Shown piece after piece: positions 21,236 through 28,905 of a DNA stretch of 64,000 bases. Position 1 is the first letter of the stretch. Every line of letters starts with the position of its first letter. A program made the position numbers and the translations under genes. The stretch covers positions 3,841,369-3,905,368 of the forward strand of contig NZ_CP100445.1 of the NCBI RefSeq assembly GCF_024227435.1, given 5' to 3'. The stretch comes from Natrinema caseinilyticum. GTDB lineage: Archaea > Halobacteriota > Halobacteria > Halobacteriales > Natrialbaceae. The notes under the pieces were generated by a model. The model saw only the letters and a list, made by a program, of their open reading frames with translations. It made no database searches and was not told the origin of the DNA.

Positions 21236-21644
21236 ACTGGCCACGCTCTCGGTTCCATTTCGAGTCCGGTTCCGGACCGAACGGTGGTCGTGTCGGGCGA
21301 TTCCGCCGGCGTGCGGGACGTTTATATCCCGGTAGAATCAACGTAATCATGGCAACCGGTTCCCTGAGCGGGAGACGGAAGCCAAGTCTCGGGTGCTCTG
21401 ACCACCCGGGGCGTTTACGCGATGCCCCCTTACTCGTGGAGACCGGCTTCCGTTCTAACCATTGGACCTTTCTACCTTATAACTACTGTTATCTGCGGAA
21501 AATTTACACCGGAAACCGGCAACCGAAACCGGTCAAATCGACAGCGGAAAGGGCCGAAGGCGACTCCTATTCACAGTCCGATAATAGTTCGCGAATCCGA
21601 TGTTCGAACCGGCACATCGCTCGAGTGGTTCCGTCGAAGCATGA
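21236..21644. other. Non-coding stretch leading into the transposase remnant
   Basis: 409 bp of falling GC content with no supported gene. It probably holds the decayed 5' part of the insertion sequence whose 3' end follows. The string CGGAAACCGGCAACCGAAACCGG near 21511-21533 is a cluster of ACCGG words without a clear role. Confidence 0.3.
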
Positions 21645-21983
21645 GTGGGTCGCTGTTTCGTGCGCGGAGAATCGCTGCCCGTTTCTCCCCTCCACAACGC
21701 GTGGAATGCGCCACTTGACAGCGAACTCTACGACAGATGGAACACGACCGAGACAGTGAACGCTGCAATCAAGCAGGAATTCAGCATATTCATCCAGTCA
21801 CATATCTCGTGGAAGCAGTTTCGCGAACTCCTCGTCAAGTGTATTGTTCACAATGTGGAACGTGGCCTCGCTCTTTCACACGAGACGTACAGAAAGTCAC
21901 TGACTCTGAAGGAGGCGGGTTGCTGCATACAGAGAATGAGTTCAGCACGACGATCCCGTTTGTTTTACACCCATCATATATGA
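21645..21983 (+). pseudogene. C-terminal remnant of an IS5-like transposase
   Basis: The stretch PLDSELYDRWNTTETVNAAI, followed by QFRELLVKCIVHNVERGL, resembles the C-terminal end of haloarchaeal IS5/IS4-type DDE transposases, where a YxRxxxET helix carrying the catalytic Glu precedes a conserved (W/Y)xxxFRExVxxCxVxN helix. The N-terminal catalytic half, with its two Asp motifs, is missing, and no open frame upstream supplies it. The gene therefore cannot be active. It marks an old insertion next to the nuclease/HIT segment. Confidence 0.6.
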
Positions 21984-22040
21984 ATATATGCCAATCGAAT
22001 GCTGGTACTTCTATCAGCTATCGGTGACGTTGGCAAAGCG

Positions 22041-22055
22041 GTGCTGAATAGAGAG
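22041..22055. repeat. Left 15-bp inverted repeat bounding the nuclease/HIT segment
   Basis: GTGCTGAATAGAGAG reads inward. Its partner at 23629-23643 on the other strand is GTGCTGAATACAGAG, one mismatch in 15. Both copies are also preceded by AAGC on the outer side. The layout is that of transposon ends, but no clear target duplication flanks them. Confidence 0.5.
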
Positions 22056-22135
22056 GAGCGATCCATCATATAAATGGGCATTTGGACGATGCCCGATTGC
22101 AGAGAAAATGTTCGGGGAATAAGAATTTCCGCGAA

Positions 22136-23044
22136 TCACGCGAGCCGTTGTTGGTAAGAGTCCGACTGGTCGATGCGAACTTCATAGTGCTGATCATCAA
22201 CGACGTGTAACCCGGCAAGGCACGGTCGCGTTTCGCCCGCTGGAAGCTCCGAACATTCATAAATACTGTATCGAATGGCGTCACTTACGGTCTGTGCTCG
22301 GAGATAAACAGGCACAACCCGATCAACAGCGAGCGACAGCGATGTTCTCGCGGCGAGTACAGGGTAACCCAACTTATGTTTGGCCAGTTCTCGTGGCGCA
22401 CCACACTTTGCCTCAACGACCAGTAGGATTCGCTCGCTTCCCCGACGGGCCACAATGAGAGCGTCAATTTCAACTTGACCGCCGTTGTGATGAACGATGG
22501 TTGGTCGGTTGGGATGCGGTTCGAACTCAAAATCGAATGTGGACGCGACCGTCGTCGGAGCGGTTCCTATCTGTTCAGTGTCAAGGTCAAGCGCTCGCGA
22601 GAAGATTCCCGTTGACAAGGCGAAGTTCACGAACGAGGTCTCCGAGAAGGTCGGAAGTGATCGGTAGACTTCGAGCATATCTTGAGCACTCTGTCTGAGA
22701 GCAAGCGCTTCGTCGCCTCCGGAAGAATAATCAAGAACCTGCCGGTCATCCGGATTAAATTCACTTTCGTCAATGAAAAAATCATCAAGCTGACCGGACA
22801 CGTTGACGAGACTAAACTGTGTCCCGGGACCATTTGACGCTCGCCCCAGACGTAGAACCATTGTCTCTTGTTCGTCTAACCGATCCGAGAGCTGTGCGCG
22901 GGTGTCTATCGAGAGTTCGTCTGCTGTCCGGTACTGGTTCGGGTCTTGGCCAATATCTCGCAGATAGCCAATGAAAGACTCTGGGCCATAGAGACCACTC
23001 TTCGAATCCTGTAGTGAGCGCAACGCTGGATCCCAGTGACTCAT
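22136..23044 (-). CDS. PD-(D/E)XK nuclease-like protein
   Basis: 302 residues of lower GC content than the chromosome around it. The C-terminal half has a nuclease core: VEIDALIV (Asp194), then a strand ILLVVEAKCG (Glu211, Lys213), giving D-(16)-ExK, followed by a helix with KHKLGYPVLAA. The N-terminal 170 residues include a block on DNA- or recognition-domain scale (LRLGRASNGPGTQFSLVNV) that I do not recognise. It could be an orphan type II-like restriction enzyme, but no methyltransferase is adjacent. A clean TATA box 25-35 bp upstream supports the start. Confidence 0.68.
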   Translation of the reverse strand: MSHWDPALRSLQDSKSGLYGPESFIGYLRDIGQDPNQYRTADELSIDTRAQLSDRLDEQETMVLRLGRASNGPGTQFSLVNVSGQLDDFFIDESEFNPDDRQVLDYSSGGDEALALRQSAQDMLEVYRSLPTFSETSFVNFALSTGIFSRALDLDTEQIGTAPTTVASTFDFEFEPHPNRPTIVHHNGGQVEIDALIVARRGSERILLVVEAKCGAPRELAKHKLGYPVLAARTSLSLAVDRVVPVYLRAQTVSDAIRYSIYECSELPAGETRPCLAGLHVVDDQHYEVRIDQSDSYQQRLA

Positions 23045-23068
23045 TATTATCTTTGATTACCCACGTAC

Positions 23069-23079
23069 CATATAAATAT
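23069..23079 (-). promoter_or_regulatory. TATA box of the nuclease-like gene
   Basis: ATATTTATATG on the minus strand ends 25 bp before the ATG at 23044. The match to the archaeal TATA consensus is among the best in the window. Confidence 0.6.
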
Positions 23080-23110
23080 CTGGCACACCCCCAATTGAAC
23101 CGGTCAGTGT

Positions 23111-23121
23111 GAGATTTTATT
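23111..23121 (+). promoter_or_regulatory. TATA-like promoter of the HIT gene
   Basis: GAGATTTTATT, centred about 29 bp before the ATG at 23146. It lies only 32 bp from the opposite-facing TATA box of the nuclease gene, so the two promoters share one 100-bp region. Confidence 0.45.
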
Positions 23122-23145
23122 CCATCCTCCTTCGTATTGGGTATC

Positions 23146-23529
23146 ATGAGCAGCACTGATAACTGTGTGTTCTGCGATATAGTTGACGGTACCCGCGACG
23201 CCACAGTTCTGCTTGAATCCGATACATACCTCTGCTTTCTTGATAAGTATCCAGTAACGGAGGGGCACGCGCTCGTCGTACCCAAAACTCACGTCCAGTA
23301 TCTCAACGAAGTCGACGGAGAAGCCCTCTACAAGTTTCTTGAACGGGCAATTACGAAGGTCCGTCGCCACTACGAACCCGACGGCATGAATATCGGTCTG
23401 AACGACGGCCCGACTGCTGGGCAGACGATTCCACATCTTCACTGGCACATCATTCCACGGTACGAGGGCGATATTGAGGATCCGACTGGCGGTGTTCGTG
23501 GCGTGATTCCGGCAAAGCGGATGTATTGA
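23146..23529 (+). CDS. HIT-family nucleotide hydrolase/transferase
   Basis: 127 residues from the ATG at 23146. NCVFCDIVDG at the N-terminus supplies the zinc-type cysteine pair seen in HINT/HIT proteins. The histidine triad is IPHLHWHIIPRY (about 103-114), complete for catalysis. KTHVQYLNEVD and NIGLNDGPTAGQTIPH are family-typical. Such enzymes hydrolyse AMP-lysine, AMP-NH2, Ap4A or similar nucleotides. The gene is GC-poor and diverges from the nuclease-like gene within the inverted-repeat-bounded segment, hinting at common transfer. A housekeeping role is equally compatible. Confidence 0.88.
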   Translation: MSSTDNCVFCDIVDGTRDATVLLESDTYLCFLDKYPVTEGHALVVPKTHVQYLNEVDGEALYKFLERAITKVRRHYEPDGMNIGLNDGPTAGQTIPHLHWHIIPRYEGDIEDPTGGVRGVIPAKRMY

Positions 23530-23831
23530 GACGCTTTGCCGACCCACTGTGATAACCCGCCGATGTAGATCTAAGTCAGAACCAATCGTTTTTGTACAGG
23601 CTACAAATGCAATGGCGCTAGATATGTGCTCTGTATTCAGCACACTGCTTATAACACCTATCTTATAGATAGATTGTCGCTCCGTTACCTCCTAGACCTG
23701 TACTGAACGATCACCACTTTCGTAGATTGATCACGATCTCGTGTCGCGTTCACGCTGTGATTGTCGCACGAATTTCGATACCGGTCACCAATCGTGGATT
23801 TCGACGAGGCCAGCAGGGTAGAACCGACGCG
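23530..23831. other. Intergenic region at the right edge of the low-GC segment
   Basis: 302 bp between the HIT gene and the end of the LolA-like gene. No gene is seen. It contains the right inverted repeat (23629-23643) and an AT-rich run (about 23640-23680), after which composition returns to the chromosomal norm. Confidence 0.35.
23629..23643. repeat. Right 15-bp inverted repeat bounding the nuclease/HIT segment
   Basis: On the minus strand this is GTGCTGAATACAGAG, matching the copy at 22041-22055 except for one base. The two copies lie 1.6 kb apart in opposite orientation and enclose exactly the two low-GC genes. Confidence 0.5.
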
Positions 23832-28120: not shown

Positions 28121-28510
28121 TCAGTACGTACGTATCTCGAGGTCGTCGACTCGTTCGAAGTGATCGACGTTGTTCGTTACGACTGGGACGTCGTTTTCGA
28201 GTGCGGTCGCGGCGATCATCACGTCGGCGTCGTCGATCGGGGCACCGTCTCGCCGCAGCGTCGCGTTGATTTCACCAGCAGTCATCGCGCACGCTCTGTC
28301 GAACGGGAGTTCCCGAACGTCACCGAGCAGATTCTTCACGACACCCCGTTCACGGTCGGACGAGTCCGCGAGGTGGATTCCCTCCCACAGTTCCATCACG
28401 GTGACCGAACTGACCTGCGCCGTGGCACCCTCGTCGATCGACCTGACCGCGTCTTGCACCGCCTCTTCTCCGCGGAGCACGTCGATGAGAAACGAGGTGT
28501 CGAGAATCAT
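28121..28510 (-). CDS. vapC: VapC toxin, PIN-domain ribonuclease
   Basis: 129 residues. The acidic active site of PIN ribonucleases can be traced: Asp4 in ILDTSFLIDVL, Glu in SVTVMELWEG, Asp residues in PIDDADVMIAATA, and the late Asn/Asp in VVTNNVDHFERV. VapC toxins cleave tRNA or rRNA when freed from VapB. The start overlaps the antitoxin stop by 4 bases (28507-28510), a typical translationally coupled toxin-antitoxin arrangement. Confidence 0.92.
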   Translation of the reverse strand: MILDTSFLIDVLRGEEAVQDAVRSIDEGATAQVSSVTVMELWEGIHLADSSDRERGVVKNLLGDVRELPFDRACAMTAGEINATLRRDGAPIDDADVMIAATALENDVPVVTNNVDHFERVDDLEIRTY

Positions 28511-28752
28511 TCGAGCGCGTCCGCGATTCGTTCGACTCGGTCCCGCGATTCGTTCGTCCGCTCGGTCCGCCGTCGCGAGACGATCCCTTCCAGTTCGTCC
28601 GCCGTGTCTTCGCCCAACGTCCCGTAGTACTCCTCGAGCGTCGTGCCCTCCGTTAACCGACGAACGACGTCACTGAAGCTCTCGTTCTCGCGCTTTTCGG
28701 CCCGGAGTCGTTCGTACGCGTCGTCGGCGAGTGAGATCGTTTTCGTCCCCAT
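28507..28752 (-). CDS. vapB: VapB-type antitoxin
   Basis: 81 residues from the ATG at 28752. The N-terminal MGTKTISLADDAYERLRAEK is a ribbon-helix-helix-like DNA-binding segment, and the charged C-terminus (RRRTERTNESRDRVERIAD) would wrap and block VapC. The start is decided by the promoter. A TATA box and palindrome lie immediately upstream, so an ATG further up, at 28791, would place coding sequence over them. It is expected to repress its own operon with VapC. Confidence 0.85.
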   Translation of the reverse strand: MGTKTISLADDAYERLRAEKRENESFSDVVRRLTEGTTLEEYYGTLGEDTADELEGIVSRRRTERTNESRDRVERIADALE

Positions 28753-28754
28753 AT

Positions 28755-28776
28755 CTGTGTATGTGTACGTACACAG
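28755..28776. promoter_or_regulatory. Palindromic operator of vapBC
   Basis: Perfect 14-bp palindrome TGTGTACGTACACA at 28762-28775, overlapped by a wider inverted repeat CTGTGTA (28755-28761) / TACACAG (28770-28776). It lies between the TATA box and the vapB ATG, where bound VapB or VapBC would block the RNA polymerase. Confidence 0.7.
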
Positions 28777-28786
28777 CCGATAAAAG
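28777..28786 (-). promoter_or_regulatory. TATA box of vapBC
   Basis: CTTTTATCGG on the minus strand, about 25-34 bp before the vapB ATG, so transcription is expected to start at or next to the start codon. The palindrome 28762-28775 lies directly downstream of it. Confidence 0.55.
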
Positions 28787-28905
28787 TCCATCGCACTGGT
28801 ACCCCCCGGACGGATCGGATCGAACGACCGTCACGAGGAGCCGGCACCCAGAGAGCCGTGAGGGCTTCCCGAAGTTACTAAGCCCTCTGCAGTCACGTAC
28901 TGGTG

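Follow-up and report, generated by a model that had tools for sequence, protein, structure and literature searches.

The window analysed here, a 64,000-nucleotide stretch of the Natrinema caseinilyticum genome, carries two divergent genes enclosed by a pair of short inverted repeats. The first (22136–23044, minus strand) codes for a 302-aa PD-(D/E)XK-type nuclease of the DUF6997 family (PF22518; Pfam 8e-13) and the second (23146–23529, plus strand) for a 127-aa HIT-family hydrolase (PF01230, 2e-22; PADLOC ThsC, 1e-16), in which the HxHxHxx motif is present intact as HLHWHII. The repeats, GTGCTGAATAGAGAG (22041–22055) and CTCTGTATTCAGCAC (23629–23643), are complementary at 14 of 15 positions. 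The original prediction had described these features as a low-GC, transposon-like unit with 15-bp ends, comprising a divergent nuclease-like and HIT gene pair next to an IS5-type transposase remnant on the left. Its account of the repeats, genes, remnant and composition holds, whereas the extent of the unit and the nature of its ends had to be revised.

The inserted block and its margins

Two congeners provide the empty site that had been proposed as a check. One of them (G023), about 90% identical in this region, aligns unbroken to window position 21626 and picks up again at 23821–23824, and the other (G003) has about 70 nt between the same flanks instead of the intervening DNA. The inserted block, therefore, spans 21627–23811 (2,185 bp). 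It includes the IS remnant, the nuclease and HIT genes, and repeats lying outside both genes, and its GC content is 51% as against 64% for the window. No clear target duplication is seen at its margins, in line with what had been stated at the outset. Further, none of the 28 other genomes in the genus has the nuclease gene. These absences agree with the earlier suggestion of a horizontally acquired unit that lacks an enzyme of its own and was possibly moved in trans. The proposed extent stands in part: the unit is indeed bounded by the repeats, but the inserted block is larger, the 15-mers lie within longer sites, and a second pair of half-sites lies outside them.

The left margin of the block, GGTTCCGTCGAAGC (21627–21640, plus strand), coincides exactly with the empty-site junction and resembles the left terminal repeat of the IS5-type elements of the same genome at 8–9 of 14 positions (compare GGCCTTGTTGAAACCC and GGCTCTGTTGAAATCC of intact IS5 copies). 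The right margin at 23811, reading GGCCTCGTCGAAATCC on the minus strand, is a good match to this repeat and ends no more than about 10 bp from the junction. The transposase remnant and its 3' region (21690–21939, plus strand; NF033579, NCBIfam E 1e-4) share 74% identity across 250 bp with an intact copy at locus L065; this C-terminal piece is all of a transposase that the block retains. A repeat on the right-hand side (23644–23816), which is dispersed in 15 of the 29 genomes of the genus, might have been the tail of a transposase gene (its 3' end), but this was ruled out because the repeat is devoid of coding signal.

IS5-type elements have mobile insertion cassettes and MITEs that carry transposase-less cargo between terminal-repeat-like ends and are absent from close relatives, and the block is like them in each of these respects. 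Hence, it might be read as such an insertion cassette or as a non-autonomous transposon, bounded by terminal inverted repeats and moved by an IS5-family transposase in trans, with the 15-mers being sub-terminal IS-end sequence. The form of the margins, the IS5 remnant within the block, and two single-gene units of the same genome that have such ends outside their half-sites all fit this reading. However, unlike in those elements, the inner boundaries are recombination-type half-sites; pairs of these half-sites spaced by 37 nt occur between genes throughout the class; and the homology between shared cassettes stops at half-site cores rather than at terminal repeats. Moreover, intact IS5_2 copies end elsewhere, and none of them ends in the exact GTGCTGAAT motif, which rules out the 15-mers as IS5 terminal repeats and runs against the expectation that intact IS5-type elements would carry the same 15-bp ends. 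We therefore regard this reading as unlikely. End sequences of IS5 type lie instead at the block margins, and the 15-mers themselves are parts of dif-like half-sites that are found class-wide between genes.

Outside the block, an intergenic stem-loop at 21385–21455 (GGAAGCCAAGTCTC...GGAGACCGGCTTCC), downstream of TTTATATCCCG, is kept in both congeners and is a candidate non-coding RNA; Rfam searches gave no hit at all, this stem-loop included.

Half-sites, compound sites and tandem arrays

Taken alone, the inverted repeat pair is weak, as shuffles of the 3.5-kb region give an equally good pair in 4 of 20 cases. We count it as real because of the number of 15-mer copies in the genome (34 with up to two mismatches, against 7 with the reversed control) and not because of the quality of the pair. 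As seen from sites elsewhere in the genome, the 15-mers are part of a 29-bp dif-like palindromic half-site with an 11-bp arm, a 7-bp core and a second 11-bp arm. When up to three mismatches are allowed, the palindrome GTGCTGAATAC-N7-GTATTCAGCAC is present in 222 of the 391 haloarchaeal genomes and in 67 of the 86 genera, as against 0 for its reversed control in the same 391 genomes. The copies are clustered, with 43 in genome G404, which has site-free congeners, 22 in G319 and 15 in G228, and in these clusters the half-sites come in pairs. The linker, whose length was left free at 20–60 nt during pairing, is exactly 37 nt in 33 of 41 units. The resulting 95-bp compound unit has the consensus GTGCnACATTC-GCGCCCT-GTATTCAGCAG on the left, followed by the 37-nt linker nAnCTGAnCGAnCTACCGAnnTGCTGTCAnAAnCGGC and, on the right, GTGCTGAATAC-AGAGGAT-GnGTTCAGCAC; we term the left half (core GCGC...) B and the right half (core AGAG...) A. 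An HMM of this unit was used to scan for sites, and its top score on about 470 kb of shuffled DNA was 7.3 bits.

The main finding of this analysis is that these sites form tandem arrays between genes. The survey, which covered one site-rich genome and two plasmids and was complemented by the class-wide pattern count, recovered such arrays by HMM scan in G404, in the plasmid NZ_CP099393 of Natronococcus sp. CG52 and in the plasmid NZ_CP083668 of Haloprofundus halobius. In G404, and likewise in the plasmids, single genes or gene pairs, spanning about 0.5–2 kb, separate successive sites; some array intervals have no annotated gene and others several. A single site out of 27 overlaps an annotated CDS, and neighbouring full sites have the same polarity in 45 cases and the opposite polarity in 8. 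A short, palindromic, intergenic and widely dispersed unit, in which two inverted palindromes are joined by a short spacer, resembles REPINs. Thus, the 95-bp unit could be seen as a small REPIN- or MITE-like two-palindrome element that is spread by a transposase with a preference for intergenic insertion, leaving the flanked genes immobile as such. The uniform polarity of the arrays tells against this, as does the observation, presented below, that cassette-specific inner arms move with the gene while the outer arms change; we hold it to be decidedly improbable.

RNAalifold gives no consensus fold for the 95-bp sites and so lends no support to a folded strand like that of attC. Pairing of L with L' shows slight covariation, with 2 of 500 shuffles scoring equally high.

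As a separate observation, near-identical insertion sequences, each coding for a 283-aa DDE_Tnp_1 protein, occupy the same position in three 95-bp sites (L268:16813, L271:8916 and L273:2951), where their end, AAACACGGCCC, takes the place of the B inner arm. They may be likened to the IS1111-attC elements, which target attC.

Shared cassettes and a proposed mode of exchange

A FAD-oxidase gene lies between such sites at unrelated loci in G000, G404, G024 and G023, the right end being worn in the last of these. The cassette bodies are 90–95% identical, as against a near-background 51–57% in the 157 bp outside them. All retain the inner arms (GTATTCAGCAG for A, TTGATGAATAC or TTGCTGAATAC for B) despite these being unlike the general consensus; the outer arms, the linkers and the ends of the cores vary from locus to locus. 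Likewise, a cassette for a Tat-signal protein is common to G000 and G023 (96% identical), one for a 201-aa protein to G404 and the Natronococcus plasmid (93%), and one for a DUF998-like protein to G404 and G000 (80%), with the homology in all three ending at or near the sites. In the FAD-oxidase and Tat-signal cassettes, the inner arms move with the gene and the outer arms and linkers do not. Going by the sequences, this pattern is what would be expected if dif-like sites had recombined at their cores.

We advance the following mechanism. A cassette would have an A half-site at one end and a B half-site at the opposite end, both with 11-bp arms around a 7-bp core, and the 37-nt linker would join adjacent half-sites of an array into the 95-bp compound site. 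A site-specific recombinase supplied in trans, most likely a tyrosine recombinase of the Xer/IntI type, would swap strands within the 7-bp core; the inner arms would then go with the cassette, and the outer arms and linkers would remain with the neighbour. No excision product, circle or inversion was observed. A tyrosine recombinase gene (L271:11836–12771) is situated about 320 bp past the last site of a G404 array, and a 67% identical homologue on a Natrinema salinisoli plasmid has no sites nearby; neither the flanks of this array nor the homologue tied a recombinase to the sites. The tyrosine recombinase of the type found in Halobellus rufus is encoded near a few relevant loci (L133, L227 and, as a fragment beside the HIT gene, L158), which are too few for a claim.

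Among the known systems, the Xer dif or pdif modules of Acinetobacter consist of genes between short sites with two 11-bp arms, form island clusters and are common to several replicons (PMC12907356). The haloarchaeal cassettes are like these modules in that genes are flanked by short sites with two 11-bp arms around a core, and in being clustered and shared between replicons. The FAD-oxidase and Tat-signal cassettes also appear to have been exchanged, as in Xer dif modules, at the core of inverted arm-core-arm sites. In contrast to the Acinetobacter sites, the haloarchaeal ones are unrelated in sequence, have a core of 7 rather than 6 positions and are doubled to 95 bp with a 37-nt linker. The dif layout, 28 bp in an 11-6-11 arrangement cut by XerC/D or XerA (layout: PMC8371274), thus differs from the doubled 11-7-11 arrangement seen here. 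Archaeal integrons have so far been described from metagenome-assembled genomes of nine phyla, in an account that does not mention Halobacteria or haloarchaea (PMC9668308). The arrays are reminiscent of integron attC arrays in their tandem, mostly one-gene cassettes of uniform polarity and in the order arm-core-arm-spacer-arm-core-arm of the compound site. Unlike in integrons, none of the 32 sites has RYYYAAC and GTTRRRY boxes on one strand or the other, neither IntI nor attI was found next to the arrays, although one tyrosine recombinase gene adjoins an array of G404, and a consensus fold is not supported by RNAalifold; further, the linkers on both sides change as the haloarchaeal cassettes move.

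Taken together, haloarchaea may have a cassette recombination system of their own, independent of integrons and the known dif modules and built on the 95-bp double half-site, which carries genes singly from one chromosome, plasmid or genus to another and includes the nuclease and HIT genes as defence-type cargo; belief and doubt are about equally weighted in our view of this. If true, it would have been overlooked because its sites are short, palindromic and intergenic. Neither the system nor the motif is mentioned in the open-access papers searched, where queries on DUF6997 and on haloarchaeal cassettes were also fruitless. It would place a cassette system in a whole archaeal class noted for rampant gene exchange, render haloarchaeal gene shuffling directly testable and offer a handle for finding the recombinase. 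The cassettes, many of them with no assigned function, would become a catalogue of traded genes, to which the present locus contributes the DUF6997 nuclease and the nuclease-associated HIT subfamily as candidates.

The probable cassette in the window and its cargo

In the window, the nuclease and HIT genes have an A half-site on their left, GTGCTGAATAG-AGAGGAG-CGATCCATCAT (22041–22069, plus strand; HMM match 22030–22067, 12.1 bits), and a B half-site on their right, GCGCTAGATAT-GTGCTCT-GTATTCAGCAC (23615–23643, plus strand; 18.3 bits at 23616–23646 and, with its linker, 22.7 bits on the minus strand at 23667–23617, E 3e-6), which is the polarity of intact cassettes. The first 15-mer comprises the outer arm of the former with the first bases of its core, and the second comprises the core and outer arm of the latter. 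Linker remnants extend beyond both, at 22008–22040 (minus strand; HMM positions 15–62 at 22055–22008, 13.6 bits, E 0.002) and at 23644–23667 (minus strand; positions 43–66 of the match 23667–23617). Outside this cassette (22041–23643) lies a second pair, composed of an outer A half-site, TTGCTGCATAC-AGAGAAT-GAGTTCAGCAC (21920–21948, plus strand; HMM match 21907–21948, 19.0 bits, E 4e-5), and an outer B half-site, GTGTCGCGTTC-ACGCTGT-GATTGTCGCAC (23741–23769, plus strand; IS-end HMM match 23749–23811, 20.2 bits, with the layout taken from the sequence). Hence, one cassette may have landed inside another. The outer B half-site is followed by a terminal linker (23770–23811, minus strand; within the same 20.2-bit match), exemplifying linkers that end in the same IS5-type repeat as the block margins.

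The window has no complete 95-bp site: its linkers are partial, and its inner arms agree with the consensus at only 6–7 of 11 positions. With its sites worn in this way, the copy has probably lost its mobility. An IS graveyard, in which erosion left two unrelated half-sites that merely happen to flank two imported genes, would be compatible with the inverted-repeat pairs obtained by shuffling, the degenerate window sites and the many such sites in the genome. Nevertheless, the half-site HMM scores exceed those of all shuffles (at best 22.7 bits, against 7.3 or less in shuffled DNA), the arrangement of A on the left and B on the right matches intact cassettes, and two congeners lack the block; accordingly, coincidence is the least credible of the alternatives and very improbable. 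We instead favour, with a probability of roughly two in three, the reading that the segment 22041–23643 belongs, as a gene cassette, to a haloarchaeal system of cassette exchange, that it is set in a block of 2.2 kb whose ends are IS5-like, and that its sites have since degenerated. This block would have inserted between two host genes, with the degeneration of the sites coming later. It has the look of an eroded representative of a gene-shuffling system that resembles integrons and has not been described before. At no other locus were the nuclease and HIT genes seen to share a cassette bounded by such sites.

About 50 bp are conserved just inside the B half-sites (TGTACTGANCGATCACCACTTTCG..., at 23694–23740 on the plus strand of the window, within the repeat 23644–23816, and in L172–L198), and are perhaps an accessory binding sequence.

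Turning to the cargo, the alignment of nuclease homologues has D194 and E211 invariant and K213 nearly so (E211-x-K213), and the C-terminal half of the structural model (pLDDT 82) folds like PD-(D/E)XK enzymes. The best matches of the model include BsaXI, Hjc, HinP1I and AddAB, at modest Z-scores of about 4–5 (best 5.1). The D...ExK motif and the predicted alpha/beta core place the protein, a predicted nuclease, in the PD-(D/E)XK superfamily. Mitoribosomal proteins, which also surfaced as fold relatives, were set aside as weak matches with a TM of about 0.2. The nuclease has homologues in a bacillus, Halolamina, Halovivax and Halobellus rufus whose neighbours are, respectively, a GmrSD_N gene, a McrB-like AAA_5 gene, an HNH gene and a tyrosine recombinase gene. 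The closest ones (72–74%, Halobellus) have no HIT neighbour.

The cargo would probably comprise an accessory nucleic-acid defence enzyme and a nucleotide hydrolase. By guilt by association, the earlier proposal of a nuclease–HIT conflict module is plausible because the HIT subfamily adjoins nuclease genes elsewhere. As a fixed pairing it fares less well: among the nuclease homologues examined, G307 alone has a HIT gene, a divergent relic adjoining a damaged nuclease gene. Searches of viral contigs with the HIT protein, and of viral contigs and phages with the nuclease, led nowhere. ThsC is the HIT protein of a Thoeris variant in PADLOC (PMC8565338); the window protein shares its fold and matches its profile, but it neighbours a PD-(D/E)XK-type nuclease gene, with no ThsA or ThsB gene between the half-sites.

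The subfamily to which the HIT protein belongs has a DPxGGVR tail. Tailed relatives adjoin an HNH endonuclease or its homologue on four bacterial plasmids, from Polaromonas, Aromatoleum, Hymenobacter and Persicobacter, and that of Jeotgalibacillus does not; none of the tail-less relatives examined has such a neighbour. The tailed HIT gene and its HNH neighbour on these plasmids (L153, L155, L164 and L165) are a candidate two-gene system in their own right. In the haloarchaeal genome G383, a HIT homologue is beside, and divergent from, a gene whose product, a 1306-aa MrcB_N/AAA_5 protein, matches EVE weakly (L160:1–4477). Elsewhere in the window, an ordinary VapB/PIN (VapBC) toxin–antitoxin pair is encoded at 28121–28791.
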